A stretch of 64,000 bases of DNA. Source: Bolinopsis microptera (Eukaryota > Ctenophora > Tentaculata > Lobata > Bolinopsidae). The notes beneath the pieces were generated by a model. That model did no database searches. It was not told the origin of the DNA and saw nothing but the letters and a program-made list of their open reading frames with translations. The translations under genes were made by a program, and so were the position numbers. Positions 4,491 to 47,159 of this stretch are shown piece by piece. The stretch covers positions 22,082,603 to 22,146,602 of the forward strand of contig NC_087072.1 in the NCBI RefSeq assembly GCF_026151205.1. The letters run 5' to 3'. Every line of letters begins with the position of its first letter. Within the stretch, counting starts at the first letter, position 1.

Positions 4491-4969
4491 CTAGACTCTT
4501 TTACAAACCGGTTGAATCTCTGCTGGAGCCTCAGAATTAGGTCTCACCATCTCCACTTGAGCGTACTCGGTACCCAGAGGATCACCAACTATCGTATCCT
4601 CCGGCTGGAGACATGGCTTTAACTCTGCGGGTGATTTGTGTTCCTTGTAGTCGTTCTTGAAGACCACACTGTCCCCTTTGAAAGCCACGTTTTTGTACTG
4701 GAGTCCCGGCACCTCTCCCCCGTTGCTTGGACCCGGTGGATCGGGGGTAATTTCTACCTGTCAGACACAATATTGGGCTTCGTTGTTGCAAAATTTAGCA
4801 TTTTAAAAATTATTAATATCAGATAACAGAAAACCAGGGGCAAAATATATGAAATTTTGGGTGGAGGGACATAACATACCACTTGAGCGACGGAGGGGCT
4901 ATCAGCAGGATCTTCTATCTGCAATATAGTTTCGTTGTCTACGGGTACGTACTCCGATGCTGTTTTCTC
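4491..4969 (-). CDS. Receptor kinase exons 26-27: C-terminal signalling tail
   Basis: Exons 4880-4969 and 4491-4757 encode residues 1056-1173. The tail is polar and carries tyrosines in acidic or SH2-like contexts: SEYVPV (1062), QYKNV (1106, matching the pY-x-N pattern of GRB2 sites), NDY (1122) and TEYAQV (1150). It ends PVCKRV before the TAG. Partner assignments are by motif only. Confidence 0.85.
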
Positions 4970-7900
4970 CTGTTTACAAGATTATTTGATTTTATATTCT
5001 TTAAAATTTGCAAAAATTGTATTGTGCAAGTTAGAATCATCAAAGAGTTAATATATAAAAACTTCCTACCTTGAAATCCAGGAAAGCTTGGTAGTGATTG
5101 ATTTGTCCTTCTATGAAACTTTTGATTTCAGTGAAGCTCGGCCTATCCGCTGACTTGAACTCCCAACACTGAATAGAGACGGAGTATCATATTATGTTGA
5201 TATTATGTTATGTCGATCAATAAAAAGTCGGTACCTTTTGGTTTGTTTCATGATAGCGGGAATTATTTTAAGTGAGACCGAGTACCTACAAAGCTACAAG
5301 TTCCATGTACCTGAAGCATAATGGAGTAAATGAAGTCAGGGGTACCATTAGGAGCTGACATCCGGAACCCGTTAACAAGTCTATCCCTAAGAAGAGAAGG
5401 GTCTATACCCGGATACGGGCTCCCACCTGTCAGGGATTAGTTGGGGATTAGCTGGCATTAGTTAAGGGTTGACTGGTTACTGATTAGTTTCTATATTTTG
5501 AGATCAGGGTATAGCAAAAGAGATTTGACGATCAGCTCATTACTAAATCTCTAAATAAGCTAACTACATGATATGGGAGCGCTTAAATTATCAGAGACAA
5601 GTTTACTCGGATCTTCAAATCTACCGCTTAACACTTACCCCATGAGAAAAGCTCGTACATGAGCACACCAAACGACCACACATCACTCTCTGTGGTGAAC
5701 TTGAGCTCGAATATGGCTTCAGGGCTCATCCACTTTATCGGGAGTCGACCACCCTCGCTTTGGTATTCGTCGTAATTATAAAGGTCTCGTGCCAGCCCGA
5801 AGTCGGTTACTTTGCACTGTTTGTTCGTGCTGATCAGGATGTTACGAGCTGCCAAGTCCCGGTGAACGAAGTTTTTCTTGCTAACATACTCCTGGAATCA
5901 TTGTGTCAGGTTTTGATATGTAGCATAATGCATATAATATGAGGAATTATAAAGAGAGACTTTTCTCACATGAAAGACCGAGTTCAATAATCCCTGGTAT
6001 TACCATGCCATTAGAGATCTGCCATGCGAAGAAGACTTGATCCTCTTGAGAAATGCAAGCCTGGTTTTTCTCTTTATTCTTCTGCAGGAAGTTCATCAGG
6101 TCACCCCCATCCACATACTCCAAAATCAGGCAGTACGGCTGATACACGACAATAGAGCCAACGATTCCAACAATATTGGGGTGGTTTCCTAGCTTCTTGC
6201 TCAGCCTTATTTCTTCCAGGAACATTATTCCGTCCCGTTCAGTAGCTACATCTGATGGTTGTGTTTGGCTTTAAGTTTCAGAACATTCTTAAAAATATGC
6301 CTTAAAATTGTCCACATCTCACAGCGAGATGCCAATATTACAGTAATCTGAGTAATCAAGCGATCAAAAATAAAATTGACAAAATATAAAATAGCCACAG
6401 ATTTAGTCATCATTATACAAAATAATCACATAGAAGCTGATCTAGAAAAAATGAAATCGCCAAATAATTAAAGCACAGTTCCGGGAATCATAGCCATCGG
6501 ACAACATTAATTAATTAATTAATTAATCCCGTCACTTTCTAGTTTGTTAGGATGGCGTAAAATAAATTTACCATAAAAGCGTTATAACCCCGATAAAAAT
6601 GGTTTACTTACTGGAAAGTTCCTTTACAGCCACAACAATTGAGGAATCGTATTTAGGTTTAGTCAGAAGACTTCCCTTGAACACCATTCCGAAAGCTCCC
6701 TCGCCCAACTTGTCTTGCAGTTCCAGATGCTCCCTCTTTACCTGATATATAGACATGTCAACTGACAGTTACAAAGAGAGTCGAAAGAAATGGAGATGAT
6801 TTCCATAGAAAAACGGCTTCATACCTACCAAAAACCAGTATATACATTCAGTAAGTGTAGCGAATAGCGATGGTAATGGTATTCGGATCGTTTTTCAACA
6901 ACAAAACATTCTTGATGATACAATAAGTTATTTATACTTTTACCGAACTGAACGTTCGACTTCGGTAAGAGTTCGATCGCGGTGATTGCTTTTTAAAGTT
7001 TTTGGAGTTTGGCACCTTTTAAAGTTCATTGAGTGCGTTTTCTCGACTATGCATCCTGGTATTTGCTGTTGTGTTTTCAAGTGTCCATCTAGAACAGGAC
7101 ACTAATGGATGGGAACAACACTACAGATACAAACCTCGCTCTAAACACGTAGTTCCTCAATTACTGGGCCGAGAATCTGGAGAGAACGGAGTATAAATCT
7201 GATATTCCTTACGGCTTACACTGCTACAGTTAATTAATAATTATTTTATCGCCTGATCCTCAAATATATTCCTGATTAGGCCAGGGTATCGGTTCTAAAA
7301 ATGATATCCTTTAATTCAAGATATCTATCGAACAGCCTTGGAAATATAAATAACAATGATTAAGCAATGGTTATAATGCTCTCCAACTTAAAATAAAACA
7401 GGCAAACTGTGAAAGTTCGCCGATTAAAATGATGCCCTTAAATTCAAGTTATCAATTGCTCAAAACTGACACAGTTAATCGAATACATAAAGCTTCATTT
7501 CTTCGTTTATTGATATTTCCTTGTGTGTAACGTGATATTGAGAAAGTTTTCGCTTAAAATTAATCGTTATGCCTACCATCTTTATTGTCTATATATATAA
7601 TATATATTATAAATAATACCTATTATAAATAAAGAACATGAGGTCCGGATTTTAAAAGTTTGTTTAATAAGCAAAACCGTTTGATAGTCCTCGAGTAAAA
7701 TTGTTGAGCTCAAATCAGTTCTAATTCTCAAAGTCAAGCCATGATAGCCCTCATGCTACATAAATTTAATAGCTAAGAACTAGTTAATCGCATATTTTGT
7801 TATAAAATAAGTGAAATAGTAACTTCAACCCCTACTTGTAGATCATCCGAGACAAAATCTATTAAAAATAGTAACCTGCAGCTGCGGACCCATTTAAATA

Positions 7901-10900
7901 GCACAGCATTTGCGCGCTTATATATCAGTCTGAGTGCACAAGGGCGGGATGATATTTCCTCTGATCAATGTCAGTGTCAGCCAAGCCAATGGCGTAAAGC
8001 TGTATTTCAGTACATGGTTCGGCACAGTCAAACTCAAACAGTTCGGCTGATATGTGCGCAGCCGCGGACCAAATATTCAACTTATGTGTCTGTCTGTGTC
8101 AACTTTAAACCACACATAAACTTATACCGAAAGCGTCGCGTTTCAGCTACTTCCGGTCGCGTGGGTAAACTATTCGGCTTTTACAGCATAGTGGGCAGTG
8201 GCGACAGTAATAGCGCTGTTACGTACTCCTTCGTTACCTTGGTTACTGCATGCAGATATTGCAAGGTCTCTGAATCTGATTGTGTGCAGCCAATTTACGA
8301 TTTACAATCTCCACTGATTATAAATCTGCACAGTCAGCTAAATGAATCTTCTTGAAGAATTCTCACAATACACACCTCTAGTACGATAAAGAATAATATA
8401 TTATTATAGTCCTACCTCCCAATCATCAGTAAGACGCTTAACTCTGAGCATTTCAGCGCGTGTAGCTTTAGCTTTCTTGAGGAAACAAGCAGCGGGGAGC
8501 ACGAACACAATGATAGCTGCAAGGATCCCAATCACAATCCAATGTGTGTCTGAGAAGCAGATTAATTGTTATTATCTTCATATTTTGCAACAGAATTGTG
8601 TTATATGCTATAGTATCTCAAATGCAATATATCGTTGCATTCTTCAGAATTTTTCTGTGGTAGGTTCAAGGTTGAATTGCGCTGCAATTTATTATATTAT
8701 TAAATCAAGTTTGTTATACCGCTAAAGATATAGATAAGCATTAACAGTTTAAGGAGACAGCTCCTCTGTCGTCTGGATGCATTTTTAGATATTATAGAAA
8801 AATTTATTTATTTTGATCGTTCAGGTTGAAAATTCGGAATGAATTTAAGTGAAGAGAGAAATCGGGTTTTTATATTAATGTTTAAATTCTATCGTGTTGA
8901 AGATGTATGCCTGCCTATATTCAATAAGTCAATACCAGGCATGTTGTCATGGTAACAGGCACTTGTAACATCTCTATTTAGTGAACTTGTCAGCGTTAAT
9001 TACTTGTCAGCGAATTATTGGTATAATGTTCAAGATGAAGCCACGCTATTTCTACCCCGCTCTAACGATTTAAGTGTGGCATTATTACCAAAATGTCATA
9101 AGTCAAAGTGACCTATACTTTATCAAAGTAGCGAAGTTTTATTCAATAATTTAAATATTAAAATATTTGATGCCATTAAATATCTCATTACTTTAGTCAT
9201 TCGTATTTGATATAAGATAGAAATCAGCTCATCTCTAAGAATTAATAGTTAAATTTAAAATCGCGATAGGGTGAAATTTGAATGTTAGGTTAACTTAAGT
9301 TGTCCATTTCAATAAACCATGAAATTTAAGATCGAGCAGACACAATCATCTCAAATTGCACGATTGTCGTAATAATTAGATAACCATACAAATACAAATA
9401 TTTATTAAATTATACTCGAACAGATTTGGTAACCACTCCACTTGCCACTAGAGCTCGGTTCTTGAGGGGGATTGACAACTTTGCACACTTATGTTGTTAA
9501 TCTTCTAAAACATATCGGTGATAATATGACAAATCCAACCAACGCAATGCAGCTGAGTTGTAAAAATTCGGTAAACGTTTGAAAAAAATCACCCGAACTT
9601 TAGATCATTTGAAGTAAATTTTCAGTTAATTGACATTTTTTAACTTTAACAGTTTTTTTATAATTTTCGTCCGATTGCTCAAAATTTCTAACTTGATGAA
9701 GAAAATCCATTCTTTAAAAATTCATCATTCTACACATCGGTTATATATGGGTATATTGAATACATGTTATGTGTTGTTGCTTTCAACATAAGTTACCTAC
9801 GACGAAAAATGTGAGCTAAGATATCTCGTCTAATCTTATTCTTTGTGATTAGGTTACTTCGCTAGCACGTTTAAATCTTCCAATCAGTCTCATTAAAGTT
9901 AAACTTAAATATCCTGCAAAAACTTTAATCTCAGAATATCTGAACCAGGTCGTTCCCGTCAAACCAATTTTATAAATTTGATGACCCAGTTCAATGTCTG
10001 TAACTAGCATCAGAACACTCTTCACTACCGACTACACTTCACTACCGGCGAGAAATTTACCAATCTTTTCTTGACATGTATCAGACATAACCTGACACAA
10101 AATATCTGACACGAAATCTTAATGTGAACGAAAGTAATTCCGTGGAAGATCGCTATTGGAACGTACCGGTTTGACACAACTGTACTTGTAGCTGACATGA
10201 TAGTTGGGTACATCTGACATGTGACTAATGGATATCGGACGCTGGTTATAGACTACCACAGTACCCCATACCTAGCAACTCAGACAGCTGGCAGCCGGAC
10301 GGGAGCTGCTGCAGGGAGCTGCTGTTACTGGCCTCACGTCACACTATAATATTATCTCTTATACTGAGAGATGCCGCATTTTTCCAGTACCCTTGTCTTG
10401 CACTCTTTCTGTCTGGGGTTGTCGGACAAGAATTGTAATTCCTCTGTAGCTGGTCGGCTGCTTGATCTTCCGTAACATCTGCATACCTCGTACGCTCAAC
10501 TAATGATTTGGATAGCTGCTTTGTGACCGAGTGTAAAGGACAGTGCTGGACAGTGAAGGCAGGTGGTAGATTGCGTGTTACAAATCTGTAGTGCTAGTTC
10601 ACCTCAGGTACCGGATTATCTGTACAAGTATGAAAACTTTTTAACAGCGCATTCCGCCCGTTAAAGCGGCAATTTAAATAATTGACGCACTAAAAAGGCT
10701 CGGATCGGTAAAATTACGACTGCTAGAGCTTGTTTAACACTAACTTCACCTAACGGATCCGGCAGCTGAGGAATGTGACTAGTTGACTGCTTTGATGGCT
10801 CGTTAGGCGCCTCTTCCTTTTGATTGGTCGTATACAAATCCTTAAACTAGTCACTCTTACATATTGTTAATTAGTTTATACGTAGTAATATAATTATGTA

Positions 10901-13900
10901 TAGAGTGCCACGAAGTTGTATTCTGTTGTTGTATTTTGCTTGGACAGTGTTGATTTAATCTCGTAAAAATTGAAGTCAATTTTTAAATTCTGATGCTATT
11001 TAAGTTGTGATAAACATAACATTTTACTTCAAACGGGTTCACAAAGTTGACCGCGTGAGCTCAAACAGGGTCTTCCTCCCGTGTGAGTTTTATCAGTTTT
11101 ATGAGTTTTTAAGGAACTTGTTGAAATTCCAAATATCTTGATTGAGCATGCTATAAATTTTCATCCATTATTAGGATTAAATTGGACTATTTATCACTTT
11201 GTTTCATGCTGACGTACGTTTAACTGAATTTGATTGCTTATATTAAGATTTGTGTGGAGGGGTCATTATATAGAGCAGTGGCACCTGCTCCGGAGAAAAC
11301 AGACACTCCTTCAACCTTCTTCTACATGTCTTTTGATTTTAGGTTCTTTACTAGTTTTCAGTCGCAAACCCTTTGACAAGTTCATTTTGACATGATATTT
11401 TATAATGAAACTGAATGTCTCAGCCAGGCTTTTCCGCCGCCGCCTGGTCTCAGCATTCCCGAAACAGTTTTTTCTCAAGGGTCGACTGAGTCCTCGGCCT
11501 CGGCCTCGGTTTAACCGAGGAATAGCGATTTTTCCTCGGCCTCGGCCTCGGTTATATCAAAGCAAAATTTCCTCGGCGTTGGCCTCGGTCGCAAATCCTG
11601 CCCTCGGTCGACCCTTGTTTTTTCTACTTCAACAACCTTGATAGATTCCTTTGTTTCTTATGCAAAACCTCGACACGTTATTAATTTTTTGAAATAATCT
11701 TGCTTATTATCCTATTAAATTAAATTTATCCAGCTGTAAAATATTTAAAAACCAGACTTACTTGTCCCCGGACACTTTTCCTCATCGAGTCCGTCCGCAC
11801 AGTCCTCGTTACCATCACAAACCAGTTCCGTGTTAATGCACTTCTCCGGGCACTCAAACATGTCATGTTCAACACACGCTGGTTGGAGGAGGTACCTTCA
11901 TATTACGCTCAACTTGATTAATCAGTACACATGATAACTTCTGTATAATAAAAAGCTCCTGTTTAAAAATAGAGGCCCCCCTACTTTGTATGTGATTTTA
12001 TGATATTAGCGAGCAGAATCCGAGTAATAGAGTGGGTTGTGGCTCAGATAAACACATACTGATTGATCATACCACTGTTATACTTTATAGTAGTAACCAG
12101 ACTAAGCAAAGTGTCGAGCAAACCACTCATTATCACTTCGCTGTATTTGAGTACATACAATATACATATTTATTACATATGTATAATGTATATCTTGAAT
12201 AACTTGGGATATGGTCCCAGAAATAGTGGTCCACCATGCAGAGCCGTTAAAACTGTTAGCTGACTCACCTTGACATACTACTTCGCCCGCCGGCTCCCAC
12301 TCTTGCAACTTGTTCTGAGGGGTGCATGTTTTAGTAGCGTTACTATCCACAGAGAGAACGGTAGCTCCCACACAATTGTAAGTTATCTTGTCTCCAGCCT
12401 CGTACAGTGTAGAATTGATCTGACCCTCTGTCTTGGTAAACGTCCCGGAGTCGACCAGGGGTGGCGCTGGACAGATCTCAACTGAGGGGTTTATAATGTC
12501 ACGTGATACGATCAGAATCAGTTGTGCTGGACAGATCTCAACTGAGGGGTTTATAATGTCACGTGATACGATCAGAATCAGTTGTGCTGGACAGATCTCA
12601 ACTGAGGGGTTTATAATGTCACGTGATACGATCAGAATCAGTTGTGCTGGACAGATCTCAACTGAGGATCAGAATCATAAATTAGTTGCTTCATTTTTTA
12701 TTCATGTCTTCCGACCTAATCGAGTTATAAAAGGTCGATATTAATATAATATGTAGGTTCTTTTGCGATAGTCAAAACGCGACAACTAGCGCTGGATGGC
12801 GACAACTAGCGCTATCCAGCGCTAGTTGTCGCTATCCAGCGCTAGTTGTCGCGTTTTGACTATCGCAAAAGAACCAATATGTATATTAATATAATATGTA
12901 TATTAATATAATATGTATGTATATTAATATAATATGTATATTAATATAATATGTATATTAATATAATATGTATATTAATATAATATGTATATTAATATAA
13001 TATGTATATTAATATAACATGTATATAAATATATATATTATATAATATACATCATAAAATATGAACGACTCTCTCCGCTGTAGATACAGCTGGCCAATGT
13101 GTCACGGTTTATTAAAGTTGTTGAACATAGCTAGTCCCAGTTATTGGTTGCACCTTTCACTCCAGCTAATTTCATAGATTAGCCCTAGAGGGTCTGGGAG
13201 TTGGGTGCTGGACCTTATACGTAGCTCTATGTTGTGGGTTACCTGGGTAACCAGTAATGTTGTGGGCTGACAAATTGTTTATCGGCTAACATCGCTTAGC
13301 AAAACCTATAACGCGAACGACATTTAAGCGATATTGAACTTTAACTGAATGTAGTGAAAATATAATGATCTGAATTAGCCATCTCCTGAAATTTTCGAAG
13401 TCCAATTTTAGAATTCTAGAAACATTTCACCACTATTACCATTCAGATGAGCAGATTTGATTGCTAGGAAGTCGGGAAATATTTTTCGTAATTTTCTTCA
13501 TTCAGGCAACTAAATGTAAACCGAAAATGGCGTACATTGTATCTATTTCCATGTTTCGCTGTTTTCCTCATTTGCCCAAAAAGTCTGTCGATGGAGAAAA
13601 AAGTCTTGCTCTGTCATAGCTACAATGTCACGCCCAGTGCAGCTGATGATGACGCTTTCAATGGATCTCGAACATTGTATTAACAAGTTGCGCGATATAA
13701 AGGCGATTATTTGTTTACCGATTCTTTATTTACCGCATAGAATATATTTATTATAATTATAACTTCTAACAGCATATTGTATAACTATAATCTATATAGG
13801 CTGTCCGCCTTTTCGTATTATTTGTCGATAAGATTCTTGGTGTGTCCCTGTTTAAATGCAGCTGAGCCGTCACATAAAATTAAAGTAGCGGCTTTAATTC

Positions 13901-28900: not shown

Positions 28901-31900
28901 ACCTAGTATTTCGGGGTAAGGGTGGTAGTTATTAGTATTACTTATTGAATTAGCTGAAGTTTATTGAATCTTCATTGCCGAGTACAGCTGCCTTTGGGTA
29001 GTTCTTCTTAATCTATTACAATTGTAAATGAATGGGAAAAGCGAGCGACCGATTTCATTCTCGGTATCATTTTGCATTTGAGAACGGTCAATCAAAGTAA
29101 TATCATTTCTTTTGTTTGGGAAAGAGAGACACTGACAGCGGTCCACTCTACCCATGATTATGGGTTTTGGTTAAATATCATCTCTTTTTGATTATAATGT
29201 CAGGGTACTTTATAAAGTCGAAATATAAACTGATATCTTCATTAATAAGGAGGAAGTTTCAACGATTTCGAAATCTATCCTTTAAAAACATTTCCTTGTG
29301 TTTAGGGAAGCATATCGGTCGATCACTGACTGAATATGCCACTTAATACTCATTCAAGTTGGCATTAAATTCATATATAATGACATTAAACTGTCGTGGC
29401 AAAGCAGAATTTGTTGGAAATAACGAATGAGCAAAATTCTCACCTTTCGCACGTGCAAACTTTGAGCAGACGTTGCGTGCGCATCCAATATTGAATCGCC
29501 GTAAATTTTTGCATGTAATTGTTTTATATATAGATTGATAAGCATGCAAAGTTTCAAAGTATTTTAAGAAGAACTGTAATCACAACGGCACTCTAAAGTT
29601 GACAGAAAATGACGAAAACAGCAATTTTCAGTGATTTTAGCGATTTTCTATCAATTTGGGCGTGTCCCAACGTGTGCAACTTTTCGATTTTCAACTTTAA
29701 AACTAGCCTATGACACAATTTATACCTATAGGAAGCAGAACTGAGCTCCACAACCCAAGGCATGGCCCAACACCAGAGAATACTAAATCGCAAAATTGAC
29801 GTTTTTATAAAATAATTCTTCAAAAAAGCACAAACTTCAATGACGAATATCTTTATGAAGGAGCAAGCTAGAAAAACTTTCTGGTAGATTTTCAGAATGC
29901 TTGAACAATTATCTAAGATAAAAATTTCCTCAGATTTTGAATAAAATTACTCCTTAATGGTTTAAAATTAATTTTAAAAGTTATTACTTTGTCAAAAATC
30001 AAGTTTTAAAAACGGTTAACTTGATGACGTCATCAAGGGGTGTTTATGACGTCATATAATTTTTTATACAATGTAAACTAAAGTATAAACAATTATTTGC
30101 AAGACCTGTGGTCGGAAATGGCTGTATCTTTTATACTTTTGAATCTATGGACAATTAAATACAGGCTACAATTGACTGGCAAAGCGTCTATCCCTGAATA
30201 TATATATATATGTATATAATATGTATCACGACAATCTATCGTAAAACAGGGGTTCTAGAAAACCCACTTCCCGATGCTCCTGAAACCTGAAACTTTTTTT
30301 GCAGTCGATTTGGTCAACGTCTAGACGCCCTGAAAAATTTCAGATCTCTAACTCAATTTTAACATGGTTTTTAAGGCACCTGAATATGGCGATTTTGGGT
30401 TTTTTACCGAATTTCGTATAACAGTGCTGGCGAGTATTTTATGCAAATTTCTTAAAAATCTCAACATAACTATTTTTATTCCTGTCATCTTTGACATCAA
30501 ATTAGAATGTTTTGAACTAAAAATAAATCTGCTGAACGACTTCCGATGAGTCTTAATGCCTGAAAAACTCCTGCCGGAGGCGGCGGCCTTCGGCCGCCGC
30601 CTCCGGCCGGAGTGCACGCTTCGCGTGCACGAAAGAGGCTTCCGACGAGTACCAAAGGGGTTATAATAGTAAAGGGGGTATAATAGTAAAGGGGGTACAA
30701 TAGTAAAGGGGGTACATAGTATACCCCCAATAAAGACACCGCTCGTGCTTGCCAGCACTGTGATATATATTCAGGGATAGACGCTTTGCCAGTGAATTAT
30801 AGCCTGTATTTAAGTGTCCGTAGATTCTAAAGCTTTAAAGATACAGCCATTTCGGACCACAGGTCTTGAAGATAATTGTTTAGACTTTAGTTTACATTAT
30901 GTTAAAAAGTAATTCAACGTCATCATCACCACTTGATGACGTCATCAAGTTAACCATTTTTAAAACTTGATTTTTCACAAAGTAATCATTTTTCAAATCG
31001 ATTTTACGCCATTAAGGAGTAATTTTATTCAAAATTTGAGGACATATTGAAGTTAGATAATTGTTTAAGCATTCTGAAAATCTACCGGAAAGTTTTTCTA
31101 GCTTGCTCCTTCATAAAGATATTCGCTATTGAAGTTAGTGCTTTTTTAAAGAATAATTTTATAAAAACGCTAATTTTACGTTCTAGTATTCTCTGGTGTT
31201 GCACCATCCCTTGGGTTGTGGAGCTCAATTTTGCTTCCTAAAGGCTCTAAATTGTGTCATAGGCTAGTTTTAAAGTTGAAAATCGAAAAGTTGCACACGT
31301 GGGGCCACGCCCAAATTGATAGAAAATTGCTAAAATCACTGAAAATTGCTGTTTTCACCAATTTCCGTCAACTTTGGAGTGCCGTTGTGATTACAGTTCT
31401 TCTTGAAATACTTTGAAACTTTGCATGCTTATCAAACTATATATAAAACACCATCATGCAAAAATTTACGGTGATTCAATATTGGATGCGCACGCAACTT
31501 CCGCTCAAGGTTTGCACGTGCGAAAGGTTAAAATTTTGCTCATTCGTGATTTTGAACAAATTCTGCTTTGCCACGACAGTTCAATGTCATTATATATGAA
31601 TTTAATGCCAACTTCAATGAGTATAAAGTGGCATATTCAGTCAGTGATCGACCGATATGCTTACCTAAACACAAGGAAATGTTTTCAACGGAAAAATTTC
31701 GAAATCGTTGAAATAACCTCCTTATTAATATTAATGAAGTTATGAGTTTAAATTTCGGCTTTGTAAAGTACCCTGACATTATAATAAAAAAGAGATGATA
31801 TTTTACCAAAACCCATAATCATGGGTAGAGTGGAGCGCTGCCAGTATCTCTCTTTCCCAAACAAAAGGCAATGATATCAATTTGAATGACCGTTATCAAA

Positions 31901-34900
31901 TGCAAAATGATACCGAGAATGAAATCGGTCGCTCGCTTTTCCCATTCATTTACAATTGAAATAGATTACATGTTATAAATCGAAACTTATTACAATTCGT
32001 AAGCCATGAATGAGTGGGAAAAGCGAGCGACCGATTTCATTCTCGGTATCATTTTGCATTTGATAACGGTCATTCAAATTGATATCATTGCCTTTTGTTT
32101 GGGAAAGAGAGATACTGGCAGCGCTCCACTCTACCCATGATTATGGGTTTTGGTAAAATATATAATATATATATAGCTTCACGACAATCTGTTGTAAAAC
32201 AGGGGTTCCAGAAAACCCACTTCCCGATACTCCTGCAACATGAAATTTTTTTTACAGTCGATTTGGACAAGGTCTAGACGCTCTGCAAAGTTTCAGATCT
32301 CTTACTCGATTTTAACATGGTTTTTAAGGCACCTGAATATGGCGATTTTGGGTTTTTTACCTAATTTCGTATAACATGCTGGCGCGTATTTTGCGCAAAT
32401 TTCTTCAAAACCTCCACATAACTATTTCTTATTCCTGTCATCTTTAACATTGAATTAGAATGTTTTGAACTTAAATATACCTGCTGAACTACTTTCGATG
32501 AGTCTTAATGCCTGGAAAACAATAAAGGGGATATAATAGTATAGGGGGTACATAGTGTTGTGAATATGAGGGCAACGGTTATGCTTGCCAGCATTGTGAT
32601 TATACGGAAGTTGTAAAATGTATTATTTAAGACATGCGTTAAAATAGGATACATTTTATTCCTCATCCTTGATATTACCTAATACAGTTGAGCATCCGTT
32701 ATACATTTTGTTGAAGGTCACTTCGTCGACGTTTTCATTGAATAGTGTTAGCCCCATTACATCTCCCTGTAATAATCAGAGTGTAATTTTGCTTATGTCA
32801 CTACTCACTAGAATATGCAATCATGAACTTGACTCTGTTGCTTGGCTAGTCTTAATGATTTATGATGGAAGATGTGATCTTCAGCTGTGTTCGCTCACTG
32901 ATAATCCAAATATAAATTTGCTTATGTCACTATTAGTAGACGTAACTACAGTTGTGATCACAATTCGGTTCGTGATCACAACTTAAATGCAGTGTTACTG
33001 TTAATAGTACAGTCTTAATGCGGAGTAGTTATAAGGTTTTGTAACTACATACTATGGAAAATGTGTGTTTCTGATCGGTAAACTTAGCGTTTGTGATCCA
33101 TTCTCTTTTATAAAAAAATTGTTGTACATTTTTCCAGCATTTAGCTGAAGTTTACAGATTTATGACATATGAATAGTTGGGGGGGGGGGGGGGGGGCGGG
33201 GTGGTACACGTTTGTTATGACACGTGAGTCGTGACCTCCGTACTATTGTTAAAGACGGTTAAAGACGTTTGAAAAGGTATGATTTGTCATAAAGGTGGCA
33301 CGGCCAGAAATGTTCAACCCGAGGCTATAGTAACCATAGTAACCGTAGTAACCGTAGTAACCATAGTAACCATAGTAACCATAGTAACCATAGTAACCAT
33401 AGTAACCATAGTAACCATAGTAACCATAGTAACCATAGTAACCATAGTAACCATAGTAACCATGGTAACCATAGTAACCATGGTAACCATAGTAACCATA
33501 GTAACCATAGTAACCATGGTAACCATAGTAACCATGGTAACCATAGTAACCATAGTAACCATAGTAACCATAGTAACCATAGTAACCATAGTAACCATAG
33601 TAACCATAGTAACCATAGTAACCATAGTAACCATAGTAACCATAGTAACCATAGTAACCATAGTAACCATAGTAACCATATTAACCATAGTAACCATAGT
33701 AACCATAGTAACCATAGTAACCATAGTAACCATAGTAACCATAGTAACCATAGTAACCATAGTAACCATAGTAACCATAGTAACCATAGTAACCATAGTA
33801 ACCATAGTAACCATAGTAACCATAGTAACCATAGTAACCATAGTAACCATAGTAACCATAGTAACCATAGTAACCATAGAGTCCCGATACGTCTGATCAT
33901 AGACTGTCATATTATATTAGTGTCCCTCCAGATAATTGCAAAGGAGTTATCGTTTGTTTTATTCCAGCTAAACATGCCTTACTCCACATTTTCACCTTAC
34001 CGAGAAAGATGGGGGAAATTGCTGGTTAATGATTCAGTCTACCTACTCAAAAGGGGGAATCTGAATTGGAGTTGCTGACAGCAATCGAAATTTCAGGTAA
34101 TTAAATCCAAATTGCTGCGTAGATCTGTAAACGAAATTTGATATCAGCATTATAACAATGTCACTTTTGAGCACTAAAATCGACATGATTGGTTGGGATC
34201 GTACTTTTGTATAGTTTCCTTGGTTATACTTAAAGCAATTTTTGCACGATACAAGCGATGACTTACGAGGGATATCTAAATAAAATCGCCAATTTTCAGG
34301 TATTTAAATCCAAATTGCTGCGTAGTATTAGACGCTTTTGCGTAAAATATATATATATATATTTTTTAATTTTGGAAGCGATTTTACAAATAAGGTGAAG
34401 GGATTGTTAATTTTAAACTTCCTTTGTGTTACTAATACTACCCCTTTGTGAAAGAACCCTTACATCTTTCCTCAGAATTGTTAACCCTCTCTCACCTTGT
34501 GAAAGGAAGCTCCTTCACTATTTGCCATTTATACAGGGATCTGAAAGCTTGGTAGTTTACCGTTTGTATAGTTATTTTGCCATAGTAATTGTTTCTAGTT
34601 CTCGGTAGTTCGTCAGCTTAGACACAATGCCGTCTCTAACTACATACATTCTTGGCTTATATCCCTTCAACTCTAGTACCTTCTTGCCTAATATCCCGGC
34701 AACTTTCCAACGAATCTTCTGGGGCTTCGCTGATATAAACGCAGCTGAACAATTTAATCGAATATTTTGTGGTCTTTGATCTCATGGACCATCTCTTTGA
34801 GGGATTGTTTTTGAGATTGAGTATTCTGAAGAATAGAGATTTAAAAAGTTCTAGAGATTCGTTGTACAACTAACGGTTCTGGGGAATAACATAAATTTGA

Positions 34901-37900
34901 GTTGCTCAATATTGAAACAAGATCCCACAACACACCAAATGTGCGGGTTTGCACCAAATGTGCGGGCTTGCACCGCCGATCCAGTAAGAGTAAGTCGCAT
35001 TGTTGAGTTAGATACTATGGTTACTATGGTTACTATGGTTACTATGGTTACTATATTAACTGAGTGCGAGATAGATGCATGTCTCCTCTTATGACTGCAA
35101 GGATTTGGTGTTTCCCTGAGTTACGTAGAAACAAAACGTATTCGTCTCATTTTAAGACAGATTTGTGGTGAATTCGTTCTATAGCTTGAAATTTTGTGAG
35201 TGTGACAGATCTGTATTCAGTAACAGCTATTTGATATCAGCATTTGATAAGTATATTCAAGCGAAATAACAGTGTCGCTTTTGAGCACTAGAATCGACAT
35301 GATTGGTTGGGATCGTACTTTTGTATAGTTTCCTTGGTTATAATACTTAAAGCAATTTTGCACGATACAAGCGACATCTTACGAGCGACTAATTAAATTT
35401 GCAAATTTAAATATTTGCTGTTTGTGCAACCGAAAATATCCGTATTAAAGTAACCTAATCGTGTTGATATACTTTATTTACGGTGACAAATTTATTAATC
35501 ATACATAATGATAAATTACCAGGTACGGTACGTGTTATTTCTAATAATTTCCAGATAGGAAGCTCCAAATATTACTATGCAAGTAATACTCAGCCGAAGC
35601 TAATTCATCTATTTGTAGGAGTTCTTGAAGTTGAACGTAATACATGTTTAATCTACTATCCGATGATTGGAAAATGATTCTGTGCGAGAGTCGTGGCTTA
35701 GTTCTAACCGCGTGGAAGTCTCTAAAATTGGTTGATATTTGACCAGATGGCTGATAATGAGATAGGATTGCACGACGTTTTTTCACCATGTGAAACTACC
35801 ACCTTATTTGGTGAATACGAAACTTACCAAGATTTGCATTGACACCCACTTAAATCTTAAATCCTATCAAGATTATTCCCCGCATCAAATATTGACTATA
35901 GTATTTGAATAATCGTACTTGATCTTGTCAATATCTCAAATCTGGTGATCTATTACCTTCAGTAATACATTGTCAGCAACTCAATTGATTTAGAACCTCT
36001 AAAGTTTATACTAGATGACGTGATCGTACCTCTAGTGATCCGATGTCGTTGAAGCCCATCTCAACCACGTCTTCCTTCCACAAGTTACCGAGTGCCAGCT
36101 TCCCCCCTGTTGCTCTAACCTTTAAACCTTTCGATAGCGGCAAAATCTCTGAGAGGAATAAACGATTGAAATTGATTTTCAGAAGGACGTAATTGACCTT
36201 TTAAAAACAAATCAATTTTATTTGTCTCAGTCTGAAACCGTTCTTTATGACACCCAACATTTAAGTGGACCGGGGATTATTAACAAAAAACAGCTGAAAA
36301 ATTCTAATCTAGCGATTTTCAATGTTCGGCTTACCGGTAAAAACTTCATGTTGTTCGTCTCCTTTCTTTCTTAGGATGACCTTGGCTTCTCCTGTCTCAC
36401 TGTTCCAGTTGGCACAGAAGAATCTCCAACTGTCGTCCTTTAGAGCGATCTTTGGGACAAGTCCATGGTCGGTGTGGAGTCCAGCCATTGTGAAGTGAAT
36501 GTGACTCTGAAGCAGATAAACATGATACAACTAGAATAGCTCCTTGCAGTAAGGGCATTTTCCCTTTATTTTTCTGGCGGTTGGCATTTCTTCTCTGGTG
36601 TGGCAAGGTTTATAAATATAAATGTGGTGATTGTGGTTTGGCCCTACCGTGTGTGTATCGAATCTGAGAGCGTTCCAATGATCTTCATTAGCCATACTGA
36701 AAATAGACCCGACGGCATCCTTAGTCCTCAGCCAGAAGCATAGAGCTAGTTCTGTCAACTCTGTGATATTTGAACGTTTTAGTTGCTCTACTTACGGTAC
36801 ATTTTTAATAAATTAATAGTAACAATCATTGCTGAGTCACAGATCAGTCAATAACTAATGGTTGTGAACGCTGACAATGTAGCTCTCTCTAATATTCTAT
36901 CATTCAATAGTATCAGTATCTGATGTACCTTCGGCAAACGGCTCGTCTACAATAACGTAGCTTGAGAGCGTACCCTCAAAATGAGCAACTTTGTTGTCGA
37001 ATTCCTTCAACTTTTCTTCCGTCTGAAAAGATTTATGATCTTGAAACGAGCATTTTTTTTCATTGATATCAGTAACTCAATGACACTATAAGCGTATTAT
37101 TTGAGTAATGTCCTGGAACATGTTTATTATTTTGTGAGGATGCTGAAAGAGTGGACTAAGGTTCTCTTTACGTTTGTGTCTTGTATGTTAATACATTGAC
37201 TGACATTTCCCGGTTAAGATATATGATGTAATGAAACCATGGTGTTGATGCATTACCATATCGAGGTATAGTGATGCAAATGGTTCATTAGTATCTCAAC
37301 TATTAAATAAATGAGCCAGAGATCTCAAAGGCCAAGGAAGCAATATGTGTCAAATTTTCCTTCTAATATATCAAAATAATGTTATTTTATGGCAGCTTTG
37401 GTGACTTATAACGCTTTTTGTTAATTTGTAATTCGTGCTTGCTGAGGTGACGCATAGATCATACTTCATATTCCAAAATAGCAAAATGATGCAATGTACG
37501 CCACTTTATAGAACACGTTTCTTGGGGCATAGTGGATTCATTTTATGTGTGATTTTGTACTGAGAATATATCTACATTAATCTGTATCTGTAAACCTACC
37601 AGATTATTGTAAAGAAAACTGACTTATTTCCTTGGCAACTATATGCAGAATGATAAAACTGTAAACCCAAACCTGGGTAACACTAAAAGCACAAATACTC
37701 ATATCAAAGGAATGTAGCTACCTGGCAGCTGTAACTAGCAAGATCTGTTTCAGTCTGACACGTGACATCCTTTGTCTTGCTGTGATCAGGAAAGAACGTA
37801 TCAGTGACGTCACTGATACACCTCAAAGTGATAACCTGAAGTTTTGATTAGTTTCATTTGTCATTTTTATAACATATCAATACCAGAGTCTTGTAGTTGT

Positions 37901-39647
37901 TTGATCTTCACGAGCCAATATTATGTAAAATAATGATAAACTAAGATCGTAGGTGGCCGATATAACGAGATTGGTGCGTATGACGCACAGATTGCTTCAT
38001 GAATCAAGTTAAACGGATATATAACATATATTATATAAGTTTAGTATATATAAGTTTAGTATATATAACATATATTATATAAGTTTAGTATATATAAGTT
38101 TAGTATATATAAGTTTAGTATATATAATATATATTATACAAGTTAACATTATAATAACCTCTGAGGGTGAGACGTGCTCATTTGCAGATCTGTTCACGTA
38201 CTCGACGTTTAGTGACGCAGTAAAATCGTTTAAGTAGCAGCCTGCAGAAATATTTGCGATCCTTTGACGCATCAAACGGCAGTTTCCAGTAATGGGTTAG
38301 CAGATCAAATGGAATAGTTTAGATTATTCCACCATAAAGATGCTTTTACAGATCAATTATCTAGTGCTGAGTTCATAAATCCTTGGGCTTGGTGCTATCT
38401 AGAATAAAACCAATCTCTCAGTATAAACTGGTACTATTCCCTACGTATTTTCAATAATGAAGATCAATTTTGTTCTGATAAAACCAGTTTATGTTTTGAA
38501 CATTAATTAACAGAAGTGCTTGTCTAACAATAACATACCACATATCTCCCCGCTCCACTTCAATATTCCCTGACATTCCACCTCCGAGGTGGTCACCTGT
38601 GTGATCATCTGTCGTATCAAATCAAATTATTTGTCATTATGTTAATAAATCATGATATGCAAGTTTTAATTTTTAAAGTTTTGAAACCGTTTTAAACCCG
38701 GTCCCCAAACAAAACAAACAAACCTCCTCCCGGCCCGTCAGAGTTAGTCTGTAGTGAACTGTAACGCTTGTTTCATTACTTGTAGTGGCATTTCCGATGA
38801 AGTCTATCGGACCGTACTGCTTGTCCGGCTCGCTTTCAGCTTCACATCTGTTTAGGGAATCGTGTTTAAAGTTTAGATAAACCTTGATCGTGAGCACATA
38901 ACTAGTGTTTTGAAGGCTTGTATTTGTTCTAGAACAAGTATTACCGGACATAAAGTTCACTTCTTTGTCCTATGTTCATACACGTGTATTCCAAATAAGA
39001 GCAACTGTACTCAGTGTCAATAGCTGCTTCCAACTCCTGAAAAACAGAGAAGATGATGAATCTATTTTCCAGAACATGTGCATGTCTTTTTTTAATGATA
39101 AATATATTAAATAAATATATATATTAAATCTGATTATATTATTAAATCATTTCAAAACTGTATCTACAGCTGGCAAGGTTTTAAGTTTATATCATATCGT
39201 TAATCGTCAGCTCGCTTGTTATGAATCAATGCGAAGAGAACCAGGGAAGAAATTATCATTTCCTGGTGTGTTTCAAAACAACTCACATCAAAGTGCTGGT
39301 ATCCCTCGTTGCAGATACGCTGTTTTTCTTCCCCCACTGTACCCTCAACTTTGAGACGTAGAAGATAGGTGCAGCTTGATATGGTGACAAGGACTGAAAT
39401 TAAGAAGCTTTAGTGAAGTTTACCCAGTAATATAAGTGAAGTGTGATCAGATTGTTTGATCGAGTGTTAGTGTAACAGAAAATTAATGGGGAGACTGCAA
39501 TTTTGAATTTATAAATTTACGACCTACAAAATGTAAGAACATTAAAAACATTAGATACTGGCTGGACGAGTATATCGCCCTTTTTCGCTATTACTGTAAT
39601 CAGTTCTTACCTGATATAGCGATTAAATGCAGTGGGTTGGGTACCAT
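4491..39647 (-). CDS. Receptor tyrosine kinase with sushi, tandem pentraxin-like and LDLa ectodomain (27 coding exons)
   Basis: Rebuilt exons, 5' to 3': 39611-39647, 39287-39393, 38984-39036, 38724-38847, 38539-38596, 38159-38241, 37722-37835, 36929-37022, 36648-36760, 36335-36506, 36030-36148, 32679-32766, 24117-24236, 19233-19384, 17946-18108, 16844-17018, 15736-15818, 12269-12481, 11762-11878, 8416-8549, 6612-6741, 6004-6251, 5639-5891, 5311-5426, 5070-5168, 4880-4969, 4491-4757. They sum to 3522 nt (1173 residues plus stop). Every junction is GT-AG and phase-consistent. The product is a type I membrane protein: signal peptide (residues 1-20), three irregular sushi-like modules (about 20-192), two pentraxin/LamG-like domains (about 193-387 and 388-618), sushi (619-689), LDLa (691-725), membrane span (732-752), kinase (774-1055) and tail. 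It would phosphorylate tyrosines in trans after ligand-driven clustering; the ligand is unknown. All key catalytic motifs are present. I cannot place it in a named kinase family. The structure is inferred from sequence, without transcripts. Confidence 0.9.
5070..6741 (-). CDS. Receptor kinase exons 21-25: tyrosine kinase domain
   Basis: Exons 6612-6741, 6004-6251, 5639-5891, 5311-5426 and 5070-5168 encode residues 774-1055. Visible motifs are the glycine loop GEGAFG (786-791), VAVK lysine 813, helix C glutamate in FLEEI (about 830), and HRDLAARN (909-916, tyrosine-kinase type). DFG is at 929-931, followed by an activation loop with tyrosines 937, 939 and 942, then [15 protein letters not shown] and [12 protein letters not shown]. 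All catalytic residues are present, so the enzyme should be active. For exon 22 two acceptors six bases apart (exon start 6251 or 6245) both keep frame; 6251 gives the length expected from FGFR-type kinases. Confidence 0.95.
8416..8549 (-). CDS. Receptor kinase exon 20: membrane span and juxtamembrane segment
   Basis: Residues 732-752 ([19 protein letters not shown] and on) form one hydrophobic span. A stop-transfer run ([15 protein letters not shown]) follows, fixing the kinase on the cytoplasmic side. The exon ends in phase 0 with TDDWE just before the kinase. Confidence 0.9.
11476..11617. mobile_element. hAT-like MITE (142 bp) with cctcgg repeats
   Basis: Inverted ends caagggtcgac at 11476-11486 and gtcgacccttg at 11607-11617. 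The 8-bp duplication ttttttct flanks it at 11468-11475 and 11618-11625. The interior holds repeated cctcggcctcgg motifs in two blocks. No coding capacity. It lies in intron 19 of the receptor kinase. Confidence 0.8.
11762..11878 (-). CDS. Receptor kinase exon 19: LDL-receptor class A module
   Basis: Residues 690-728 in one phase 1-1 exon. Six cysteines at 691, 699, 703, 710, 716 and 725 have LDLa spacing, and the calcium-binding acidic stretch [13 protein letters not shown] is intact. LDLa modules bind a calcium ion and often a protein ligand. Here the module sits right against the membrane, leaving only a short stalk (KCPGTNTHW). Confidence 0.93.
12269..12481 (-). CDS. Receptor kinase exon 18: canonical sushi/CCP module
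   Basis: Residues 619-689 in one phase 1-1 exon, the usual organisation for sushi modules. Four cysteines (622, 655, 671, 688), ITYNC before the second, and the Trp (EWEPAG) before the fourth are all present, with NST and NAT as possible glycosylation sites. The acceptor used here is cccctcag just above 12481. Three more copies of the same acceptor and exon start lie upstream in the intron in a 60-bp tandem repeat, so the true 5' end of this exon could instead be 12541, 12601 or 12661 without breaking the frame. Confidence 0.85.
12470..12671. repeat. 60-bp tandem repeat (about 3.4 copies) spanning an exon start
   Basis: The unit beginning gctggacagatctcaactga repeats at 12470, 12530, 12590 and partly at 12650. 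On the minus strand each copy contains the acceptor and the first residues of the sushi exon (EICPA). Copies are essentially identical, so the expansion is recent or kept homogeneous. The unit is 20 codons long and free of stops in the exon frame. Confidence 0.9.
12756..12875. mobile_element. hAT-like MITE (120 bp), near-perfect foldback
   Basis: Starts ggttcttttgcgatagtc and ends with its reverse complement at 12875. The 8-bp duplication aatatgta flanks it (12748-12755 and 12876-12883). The inside alternates gacaactagcgc and its complement, so the whole element can fold on itself. It shares ends with the much larger element at 25006-26525. Confidence 0.85.
12885..13060. repeat. AT-rich 17-bp tandem repeat
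   Basis: About eight copies of tatattaatataatatg grading into (AT)n, directly beside the MITE at 12756-12875, inside intron 17 of the receptor kinase. The MITE's target duplication has the same sequence as the repeat. Confidence 0.8.
13061..15507. other. Intron 17 of the receptor kinase gene, plain part
   Basis: No exon with splice sites and domain match, and no transposon end seen. The 13936-14289 frame (117 codons) has no recognisable features. A short gagaga-rich run lies near 14634-14660. Confidence 0.45.
15508..15566. repeat. Perfect 25-bp inverted repeat with a CRE-like loop
   Basis: Arms taccctggccttaaagactt and so on (15508-15532) and their exact complement (15542-15566) enclose a 9-base loop. 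TGACGTCA, the cAMP-response-element palindrome, sits at the arm-loop junction. It is in intron 17. It could be a short foldback element or a structured regulatory site. Confidence 0.8.
15736..24236 (-). CDS. Receptor kinase exons 13-17: second pentraxin/LamG-like domain
   Basis: Exons 24117-24236, 19233-19384, 17946-18108, 16844-17018 and 15736-15818 encode residues 388-618. Landmarks are [82 protein letters not shown] and [17 protein letters not shown]. The last is the classic pentraxin 'G-I-x-x-x-N-x-W-x-x-x-L' end. It aligns piece by piece with the domain before it (HFTMAGL versus HFYMAGI), and three of the four internal junctions share phase, so the pair arose by duplication inside the gene. 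The domain is spread over 8.5 kb because introns 13 and 14 have taken in mobile DNA. Confidence 0.85.
16438..16590. repeat. 44-bp tandem repeat (about 3.5 copies)
   Basis: Units containing cgtccacaactggtgtggct plus ttattgctgttatactggtt; the last copy has an internal deletion. Intronic, between exons 16 and 17 of the receptor kinase. Confidence 0.85.
17031..17297. repeat. 26-bp tandem repeat interrupted by a copied splice acceptor
   Basis: About ten copies of tagtttttcttaaatacctt plus gacttt. At 17219-17238 the array contains a second copy of the 20 bases that form the exon 16 acceptor and exon start (17011-17030). The array begins immediately upstream of exon 16 on the minus strand. Confidence 0.85.
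17346..17445. repeat. Short imperfect repeats with gagcagtaggt
   Basis: Three partial copies of a roughly 40-bp segment containing agagcagtaggta and attagtactag. Intron 15 of the receptor kinase; the minus-strand open frame across it is not coding. Confidence 0.6.
18165..18720. repeat. Diverged direct duplication in intron 14
   Basis: The segment around 18170-18240 (aaaatctggttactcgctcc, then caatcatggagaggt, then catttccaggaatt) recurs at about 18632-18706 with scattered changes. A related piece lies at 18295-18360. It is an old local duplication or an unidentified repeat family. No coding sense. Confidence 0.55.
19777..21830 (-). mobile_element. Composite element: LINE fragment enclosed by 270-bp inverted repeats
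   Basis: Inverted repeats lie at 19777-20043 and 21494-21765 and end in ctagcaggaacccg and its complement. Between them a minus-strand reverse transcriptase tail is encoded (20256-21267). The 13-bp sequence tattttatgagca occurs just outside at 19764-19776 and 21831-21843 and may be the target duplication. If so, about 65 bases including a poly-C run belong to one end only. An internal pair, tatcgtctcgctttat (about 21331) and aataaagcgagacgat (about 21471), is also inverted. The element sits in intron 13 of the receptor kinase. Confidence 0.75.
20256..21267 (-). pseudogene. LINE-type reverse transcriptase C-terminal fragment, frameshifted
   Basis: Two overlapping-sense frames, 20860-21267 and 20256-20828, join after a one-base shift near 20860. 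The first resembles the region after the polymerase core in non-LTR elements ([38 protein letters not shown]). The second has [16 protein letters not shown], then [14 protein letters not shown], then a CxxC-type ending (CKACS followed by [19 protein letters not shown]). The polymerase core and endonuclease are missing. It is a dead fragment, not a host gene. Confidence 0.8.
22308..22465. repeat. 9-bp tandem repeat (cctacacat)n
   Basis: About 17 copies with a few variants (cctacacatt, catacacat). Two overlapping plus-strand frames stay open through it only because 9 is a multiple of 3. Intron 13 of the receptor kinase. Confidence 0.9.
22690..23505. mobile_element. 816-bp foldback built from ccggctataag palindromes
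   Basis: Outer arms ttggtagatcaccgaccggc (22690 on) and the exact complement ending at 23505 bracket dozens of ccggctataagccgg and ccggcttatagccgg units. The left half is largely the reverse complement of the right half, with the axis near 23060. No transposase and no clear target duplication. It is probably a non-autonomous foldback transposon in intron 13. Confidence 0.75.
24282..24340. repeat. 9-bp tandem repeat (caatgtaca)n
   Basis: About six copies ending just upstream (minus-strand sense) of the exon 13 acceptor at 24237-24238. Confidence 0.85.
25006..26525. mobile_element. hAT-like foldback element (1520 bp) with subterminal cagcgcta arrays
   Basis: Ends ggttcttttgcgatagtc at 25006 and its complement at 26525, with the 8-bp duplication ggtgttct at 24998-25005 and 26526-26533. 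About 500 bp at each end is inverted and packed with gacaactagcgctgg and ctagccagcg units. The roughly 450-bp middle holds several ccctaa repeats near 25620-25720 and no open frame. It is related to the 120-bp element at 12756. The subterminal repeats resemble transposase-binding arrays known from hAT elements (inference). Confidence 0.85.
26777..27109. repeat. Long hairpin H1 of a foldback family
   Basis: Arms of about 150 bases (from atatttgaccaaaacccata to its complement ending 27109) around a spacer of about 40 bases. Two related hairpins lie at 28664-29179 and 31799-32161. Intron 12 of the receptor kinase. Confidence 0.85.
28119..28438. mobile_element. Inner MITE-like block, copy 1 (acagtgctggc ends)
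   Basis: The inverted ends acagtgctggcaag and cgccagcactgt enclose a segment with gtatactatgtaccccctt, a perfect GC hairpin (gtgcacgcgaagcgtgcac) and a second one around ggcggccgaaggcc. It is absent from the second body copy (29180-30210), which suggests a separate insertion into the larger repeat. Confidence 0.65.
28664..29179. repeat. Long hairpin H2 of the foldback family
   Basis: Arms at 28664-28830 and 29028-29179 match each other closely and differ from H1 and H3 at the same positions on both arms. The spacer of about 200 bases is unrelated to the H1 spacer. Confidence 0.85.
30420..30765. mobile_element. Inner MITE-like block, copy 2 (inverted)
   Basis: Reverse-oriented copy of the block at 28119-28438, from acagtgctggcgag to cttgccagcactgt. 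It carries three or four aaagggg units plus the same GC-rich hairpins with compensating changes. Confidence 0.65.
31799..32161. repeat. Long hairpin H3 of the foldback family
   Basis: Arms of about 150 bases around a short spacer, with its own set of matching substitutions relative to H1 and H2. Adjoins the inverted body copy to its left. Confidence 0.85.
32679..37022 (-). CDS. Receptor kinase exons 8-12: first pentraxin/LamG-like domain
   Basis: Exons 36929-37022, 36648-36760, 36335-36506, 36030-36148 and 32679-32766 encode residues 193-387. The pentraxin fold order is visible: [20 protein letters not shown] (strand leading to the first Cys), [10 protein letters not shown], then [18 protein letters not shown] (the W-x(n)-C-x-x-W motif), [10 protein letters not shown], and [15 protein letters not shown] near the end. 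The exon phases (0-1, 1-0, 0-1, 1-0, 0-1) largely parallel the next domain. Pentraxin and laminin-G-like folds bind glycans, lipids or proteins, often with calcium. I do not see a confidently conserved calcium site. Confidence 0.8.
32767..33180. other. Intron 11 of the receptor kinase gene, left part
   Basis: No exon or repeat recognised. The 105-codon plus-strand frame at 32669-32986 overlaps exon 12 on the other strand and is a shadow. A run of about 17 G starts at 33180. Confidence 0.5.
33327..33879. repeat. 9-bp tandem repeat (taaccatag)n, about 61 copies
   Basis: Highly regular, with occasional catgg, ccgtag and catat variants. It gives open frames on both strands, encoding repeats of TIV, MVT and LLW; none has a plausible gene context. 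Intron 11 of the receptor kinase. Confidence 0.95.
34150..35395. repeat. 130-bp direct repeat pair, about 1.1 kb apart
   Basis: The segment at 34155-34277 (cttttgagcactaaaatcga, then tggttgggatcgtacttttg) recurs at 35277-35383 with few differences. Flanks differ. The second copy lies 0.2 kb past a short ttactatgg array (35014-35052), the complement of the large array unit at 33327-33879. The intervening sequence has no exon. Confidence 0.7.
35014..35052. repeat. Short 9-bp array (ttactatgg)n, four copies
   Basis: Same 9-mer as the 33327-33879 array but in the opposite orientation, about 1.1 kb away and still within intron 11. Confidence 0.8.
37722..39393 (-). CDS. Receptor kinase exons 2-7: three irregular sushi/CCP-like modules
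   Basis: Exons 39287-39393, 38984-39036, 38724-38847, 38539-38596, 38159-38241 and 37722-37835 encode residues 13-192. Sushi hallmarks recur: RICNEGY (second-Cys context), [14 protein letters not shown] (third Cys, Trp, fourth Cys), and VITLRC then VTCQ then YSCQ. The modules are not clean. The second has HYRL where the second Cys is expected, and spacing in the first is short. Sushi modules usually bind other proteins. Donor gttatt after exon 6 (38159) is a weak but usable site, and without that exon the frame would meet a stop. N-glycosylation sites are present (NATT, NETS). Confidence 0.75.
38028..38140. repeat. AT-rich repeat (tatataagtttag)
   Basis: About six copies of a 13 to 15-bp unit mixed with (AT)n, just downstream of exon 6 (intron 6) of the receptor kinase. 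Confidence 0.75.
39611..39647 (-). CDS. Receptor kinase exon 1: start codon and signal peptide
   Basis: The ATG at 39647-39645 opens [12 protein letters not shown] and is cut by a strong donor (gtaagaac) in phase 1. Joined to exon 2 it gives the hydrophobic leader [20 protein letters not shown], a good secretion signal with cleavage likely near residue 19 or 20. The start was chosen because it alone gives a leader in frame with exon 2. Upstream 5' UTR exons cannot be seen. Confidence 0.75.
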
Positions 39648-46778: not shown

Positions 46779-47128
<350 letters not shown>

Positions 47129-47159
47129 GTCTCTATCTCTCTCCCCTCTAAGTATCCCC

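Follow-up and report, generated by a model that had tools for sequence, protein, structure and literature searches.

Sushi and pentraxin modules occur together in soluble proteins of innate immunity and the extracellular matrix, as the original prediction for this stretch of DNA stated. The secreted Polydom/SVEP1, which is reported to bind the receptor kinase Tie1 (PMC10281526), bears this out. Pentraxin domains have also been described on adhesion GPCRs (PMC13197933), and the pentraxin-like domain of ADGRG4 is reported to form a calcium-independent homodimer (PMC10687090). On the kinase side, a survey that stresses ectodomain shuffling dates the FPVR subgroup to eumetazoans. It defines this subgroup, and the longDE clade that holds it, with a hinge Asn, an activation-loop Met, a long insert between helices D and E and a phase-2 intron in helix H; its main text nowhere contains the string "ctenophor" (PMC8662651). 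A further study regards its data as compatible with FGFRs having originated in eumetazoans (PMC7260276).

The locus described here lies in a 64,000-nucleotide stretch (the window) of the ctenophore Bolinopsis microptera, and all coordinates without a contig label refer to it. Of two glutamate receptors of this genome that were compared, one is matched best by the iGluR ML032222a of the ctenophore Mnemiopsis, next by entry 4zdm, from Pleurobrachia, with vertebrate kainate receptors behind; among the best 60 matches of the other, the names are those of ordinary AMPA and kainate receptors. A minus-strand gene runs from its ATG at 39647 to the end of its stop codon at 4491, the same ends as originally predicted, where no strand had been named. 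It is probably one ctenophore gene, encoding a single-pass receptor tyrosine kinase in which a Cys-rich N-terminus, two pentraxin domains, a sushi module and an LDLa module stand on an FGFR/PDGFR/RET-type kinase; such a receptor would work by pairing and would have arisen by exon shuffling. What can be read from the DNA itself is the open chain of exons, with its catalytic motifs and membrane span, and the domains that Pfam names. Together they give the layout of a receptor tyrosine kinase, namely a signal peptide, an ectodomain, one span and an intracellular kinase. Its ectodomain order could not be matched to a named family, as had been claimed. Among the matches listed for the literature on architecture and on early receptor kinases, subscription papers being outside that scope, no pentraxin-bearing receptor tyrosine kinase was found. 

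The final gene model comprises 28 exons encoding 1217 residues, with no internal stops and with compatible phases throughout. Each of the 27 introns has GT-AG borders and each acceptor ends in CAG, a regularity that partly reflects the choice of sites by a score favouring it. The predicted phase consistency and GT-AG borders stand; the exon number is 28, one more than the 27 predicted. Exons were chained by a script using splice-site weights and a codon table trained on 779 codons, all taken from clear exons of this same gene. Before hand correction, the automatic 26-exon chain scored 201.6, a value inflated because the codon table was trained on the same gene; the opposite strand scored 10.5 and the best of 30 dinucleotide shuffles 14.1. 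The chain scored at 201.6 still held a retrotransposon-like frame (20259-20930) as an exon, which was later removed by hand. A short exon at 21920-21894 was also dropped, owing to a phase mismatch, and the N-terminal exons, like the last part of the first pentraxin domain, were refined by hand from the sequence. The ends of the chain vary with the settings. The automatic chain first obtained runs from 39647 to 4491; of two reruns, one takes another final exon and stops at 4312, and the other, a lenient one, starts at 41406 and has 44 exons, four of them small and lying between the LDLa and membrane-span exons.

Several repeats and mobile-element-like frames were observed within and around the gene. 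Frames resembling a retrotransposon reverse transcriptase lie in intron 14 (20259-21351, minus strand), and an open frame resembling a piggyBac-type transposase lies at 52325-53146 (minus strand), both recognised by eye. At 44157-46029 a 45-base unit is repeated in tandem about 42 times, and both strands of this array carry long open frames. Long simple or minisatellite arrays are dense in the window (33327-33879, 46781-47143, 48243-48960, 58039-58528, 59197-59559 and 60534-61400). Rfam and tRNA searches of the 64-kb window gave no match.

The retrotransposon-like frames in intron 14, and a minisatellite that overlaps the acceptor of exon 19, could be taken as marks of a decaying or unexpressed gene. 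However, all 28 exons are open and the catalytic motifs are in place, and decay is considered highly improbable.

The N-terminal part of the receptor starts with a signal peptide encoded by exons 1 and 2 (39647-39611 and 39393-39287; 39287-39647 overall, minus strand), which also hold the start codon and the onset of the Cys-rich region; hydrophobic windows cover residues 5-26. The signal peptide and the single strong membrane span agree with the original prediction, both being read from hydropathy, with a weaker peak at residues 886-887 inside the kinase. The Cys-rich region extends over exons 2-7 (39393-39287, 39036-38945, 38847-38724, 38596-38539, 38241-38159 and 37835-37722; 37722-39393, minus strand). 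By eye, its Cys spacing resembles up to three degenerate sushi modules. The three sushi-like modules claimed earlier hold up to that extent, as a Cys-rich N-terminus, and the Pfam Sushi profile gave no match in them. A match to DUF7043 at 0.12 in one of the three was taken as chance. In total, residues 20-773 contain 28 Cys and seven N-glycosylation sequons. Pfam runs on the whole protein and on six pieces gave no Ig, cadherin, MAM, vWFA or EGF match in the ectodomain.

Two pentraxin/LamG-like domains follow, as had been predicted. Pentraxin domain 1 (residues ~206-431) is encoded by exons 8-13 (37022-36929, 36760-36648, 36506-36335, 36148-36030, 32766-32679 and 24733-24641; 24641-37022, minus strand) and matches Pfam Pentaxin at 35.0 bits (1.5e-8), against a cut-off of 25. 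This match begins in exon 8 and reaches exon 13, bridging introns of 3.3 and 7.9 kb; an earlier version of the piece, without exon 13, scores 29.6 bits. Pentraxin domain 2 (residues ~432-662) is encoded by exons 14-18 (24236-24117, 19384-19233, 18108-17946, 17018-16844 and 15818-15736; 15736-24236, minus strand). It matches Pentaxin at 39.0 bits (8.8e-10) and also Laminin_G_3 (6.7e-11). Since the Pentaxin match covers exons 15-18, exon 14 is placed by phase and by resemblance by eye. Among PDB structures, domain 1 has PTX3 as its sole match, a weak one (E 0.028). Domain 2 matches neuronal pentraxin-2 (E 1.2e-10), other pentraxins and, lower down, the pentraxin-like domain of ADGRG4 (E 0.005).

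Between the pentraxins and the membrane lie two short modules, each on a single exon. Exon 19 (12269-12481, minus strand; residues 663-733) encodes a sushi module with four Cys in sushi spacing, which on its own reaches 0.021 and 15.7 bits against a Pfam cut-off of 20.7 and is absent from the whole-protein list. Exon 20 (11762-11878, minus strand; residues 734-772) encodes an LDLa module at 24.1 bits and 4.1e-5, exactly equal to the Pfam cut-off. Of the membrane-proximal pair originally proposed, the LDLa is thus recovered by Pfam at its cut-off, and the sushi stays a weak assignment, with well-spaced Cys and a profile score under the cut-off. Both exons are in phase 1-1, as shuffled modules are. 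A 60-base tandem repeat of 3.4 identical copies (12466-12667) contains the acceptor of exon 19. The acceptor copies at 12661, 12601, 12541 and 12481 are all open and in frame, so that a switch between them would lengthen the protein by 20, 40 or 60 residues.

Exon 21 (8416-8549, minus strand) encodes the membrane span (about residues 775-797, hydropathy up to 2.95) and the juxtamembrane segment. Its junction with the LDLa exon is in phase 1. This junction bears on whether two adjoining genes are present, the upstream one for a secreted sushi-pentraxin-LDLa protein and the downstream one for a receptor kinase of its own. The introns of 3.2-7.9 kb between some parts of the gene would suit such a split, as would the placing of the four small exons of the lenient run in intron 20. 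Nevertheless, the joins are phase-compatible throughout and, as modelled, the membrane-span and kinase exons have no signal peptide of their own; two genes are therefore thought very unlikely, and the single receptor gene is retained.

How the ectodomain might bind a ligand was approached through the classical calcium site of pentraxins, with the roles of its residues as we take them to be. The calcium signature is absent from both pentraxin domains of the receptor in the PDB alignments; for domain 1 the alignment is weak, and PTX3, with which it is aligned, itself deviates from the signature. A pattern scan of ten pentraxin loci elsewhere in the genome found GQ[ED]QDSVGG in eight, with L052 and L053 giving no match. 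These eight correspond to seven distinct genes because L001 and L008 overlap. The scanned loci favour the consensus, since seven of the ten were picked as best Pfam matches or overlap them. With the signature missing from both domains, classical calcium-dependent pentraxin ligand binding is unlikely for this receptor.

The original prediction saw a pattern-recognition ectodomain fused to a tyrosine kinase, which could sense glycans, microbes or self surfaces. In a receptor of this kind, microbial or damaged-self surfaces would be bound by the pentraxin and sushi modules, and the kinase would trigger an immune response. As a matter of general knowledge, innate immune proteins commonly contain pentraxin and sushi modules, and at least 144 pentraxin matches were found genome-wide, many of them in frames that extend beyond the domain and some in pairs that share a frame. 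Sponge genes combining kinase activity with sushi, DEATH or LRR domains are likewise reported to change expression after LPS (PMC8242945). A survey of ctenophore immune receptors has neither pentraxins nor tyrosine kinases in its main text and so neither supports nor excludes this idea (PMC11797021). However, both receptor pentraxins lack the calcium signature kept in seven of the best-scoring pentraxin genes of the genome, and we regard an immune pattern-recognition role as improbable.

An alternative is that the pentraxins are pairing modules, as proposed for ADGRG4, in a homophilic or matrix- or force-sensing receptor that reads cell contact or shear and has no diffusible ligand. The ADGRG4 match of domain 2, and the calcium independence of the ADGRG4 dimer (PMC10687090) set beside the missing signature here, are consistent with such a role. 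However, this is just one among many uses of the pentraxin fold, and neuronal pentraxins, PTX3 and CRP all outscore ADGRG4 on domain 2. A homophilic, matrix- or force-sensing receptor is seen as rather unlikely. The ADGRG4 homodimer does offer a concrete model for the broader reading preferred here, a receptor that works by pairing, in which pairing or ligand binding would bring the kinases together.

The kinase itself (residues 818-1099) is encoded by exons 22-26 (6741-6612, 6251-6004, 5891-5639, 5426-5311 and 5168-5070; 5070-6741, minus strand). It matches the Pfam tyrosine kinase profile at 1.2e-84, and its catalytic motifs are intact in the model protein. Exons 27 and 28 (4969-4880 and 4757-4491; 4491-4969, minus strand) encode a cytoplasmic tail with YVPV, YKNV and YAQV, followed by the stop. 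An intact kinase had been predicted and is confirmed, and the tail tyrosines, predicted to be of SH2 type, are present. The best single-domain PDB matches are, in order, FGFR3 (219 bits), FLT3, KIT, FGFR1 and RET; a tandem EGFR construct comes first by summed score, at 154.6 bits per domain. In a small tree of nine kinases, the kinase groups with FGFR3, FLT3, RET and a second gene of this genome, on C9, at 84/96 on a long branch, and pairs with the C9 gene at 73/76, both groupings being unstarred.

Features used to define FPVR kinases give a mixed picture. The Asn of HPNI in this kinase aligns with that of HKNI in FGFR3, which we take to be the molecular-brake hinge residue meant in the definition; the marker is weak, as RET has His there and ABL1 has HPN. 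At the position we assume to be that of the activation-loop Met, Met appears to be present, and EGFR has Met too. By hand count the helix D-E insert has 25 residues, compared with 21 in EGFR, 22 in ABL1, 24 in the FGFR3 construct, 43 in FLT3 and 44 in RET. The natural FGFR3 insert is longer than that of the construct. The phase-2 helix H intron is absent, the intron presumed to lie there (exon 25/26) being in phase 0. Because the hinge Asn and Met appear present and the phase-2 intron is absent, the kinase is called FPVR-like and is not counted as a member; judged by these comparisons, it is FGFR/PDGFR/RET-like.

The C9 gene (~6880032-6918116) is the nearest kinase among the loci read, with 39% identity and 231 bits over two pieces, compared with 219 bits for FGFR3 and 180 for locus L010. 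The latter ranked above it in the genome search because its kinase lies in one frame. The loci read were 30 (L009-L038) among 127 matches; a group on C1 (22655828-22657327) lies outside these and, along a short stretch, reaches 53% identity at most. In a rough model, which includes at least one simple repeat and was trimmed and joined by hand from pieces, the C9 gene encodes fn3 (3.3e-9), Ig (9.9e-5, under the cut-off), a membrane span and a kinase. RET is the best single-domain PDB match of the C9 kinase. Two intron positions are common to both genes, one after VAVK (phase 1) and one before the catalytic loop (phase 0), and the others differ. The C9 gene further differs in its Ig/fn3 ectodomain and in a kinase insert that holds YVNL and YINL. 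This pair suggests one kinase type with two ectodomains. As the nearest relative among the loci read carries Ig/fn3, exchange of the ectodomain on a common kinase type is likely, and the C9 gene possibly bears on the age of RET/FGFR-type kinases.

Further pentraxin-kinase genes were sought by co-location, pairing the 144 pentraxin matches with 102 of the 127 kinase rows on the same strand within 60 kb, where only the best candidates were scored. Three pairs emerged, with the pentraxin upstream in one (on C8, 31.9 kb) and downstream in two. The C8 pair was rejected as a second case, its kinase reading HRDIKGQN and looking Ser/Thr-type. Genome searches with the ectodomain and with the N-terminus returned the window gene as the only high-identity match. 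The remaining ectodomain matches were mostly single-frame pentraxins, along with two C6 loci and an LDLa-like match on C4. By eye the two C6 sushi/LDLa matches look like SRCR-LDLa genes, their likeness lying in the LDLa, and they too were set aside. No second pentraxin-kinase gene was therefore found by co-location or by the ectodomain and N-terminus searches, which can miss split genes, since the pentraxin search did not report the window's own split exons.

Taken as a pairing receptor, the protein would do without the calcium site that is usual in pentraxins, and its ectodomain would bind a matrix, cell-surface or soluble protein ligand or pair with itself. Pairing would place two kinases side by side, leading to phosphorylation of activation-loop and then tail tyrosines. 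The phosphorylated YVPV, YKNV and YAQV motifs may recruit SH2 proteins. The YxN motif is a Grb2-type site, and YKNV suggests an adaptor of that type. Exon shuffling most likely brought the ectodomain to this type of kinase, which in its nearest relative among the loci read is joined to Ig and fibronectin modules.

Tentatively, and with somewhat less than an even chance, the gene represents a new class of receptor tyrosine kinase in ctenophores, joining pentraxin-type sensing domains to an FGFR/PDGFR/RET-type kinase. Together with its Ig/fn3 sister on C9, it would place FPVR-type kinases in a lineage that goes unnamed in the main text of the survey dating the subgroup to eumetazoans. The two genes make the age of this kinase group, as dated in PMC8662651 and, for FGFRs, in PMC7260276, open to testing. 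If the reading is true, an early-branching animal fused modules known from secreted immune and matrix proteins directly to a kinase of the growth-factor-receptor type.

Compared with described systems, the receptor resembles FPVR kinases (FGFR, PDGFR/KIT/FLT3/CSF1R, VEGFR and RET) in its PDB ranking, its tree group and the hinge Asn aligned with FGFR3. It differs from them in having no Ig or cadherin match and a phase-0 helix H intron, and its kinase insert is short beside those of FLT3 and RET; the FGFR family has an Ig ectodomain, for which Pfam gives no match here. ALK carries MAM domains beside an LDLa. The window gene, in contrast, has no MAM match in Pfam, and ALK is absent among the best 60 PDB matches of its kinase. 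Monosiga RTKB2 is likewise a receptor kinase with a sushi/CCP module in a combination unseen in animal families. Its description names five EGF modules and TNFR-like Cys-rich ones and mentions no pentraxin, and its kinase has limited homology to animal families (PMC3584944). ADGRG4 shares a calcium-independent pentraxin-type domain on a signalling receptor (PMC10687090). It differs as a seven-pass receptor with one pentraxin-like domain. We know of no sushi, LDLa or kinase in ADGRG4. Polydom/SVEP1 also contains both sushi and pentraxin modules, and a receptor tyrosine kinase is its target (PMC10281526, PMC12549020), but it is a secreted protein of the matrix that carries vWFA, EGF and HYR modules and lacks a kinase. 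Where secreted Polydom binds a separate kinase receptor, Tie1, the window gene would offer an alternative, with the modules, the membrane span and the kinase in one chain.
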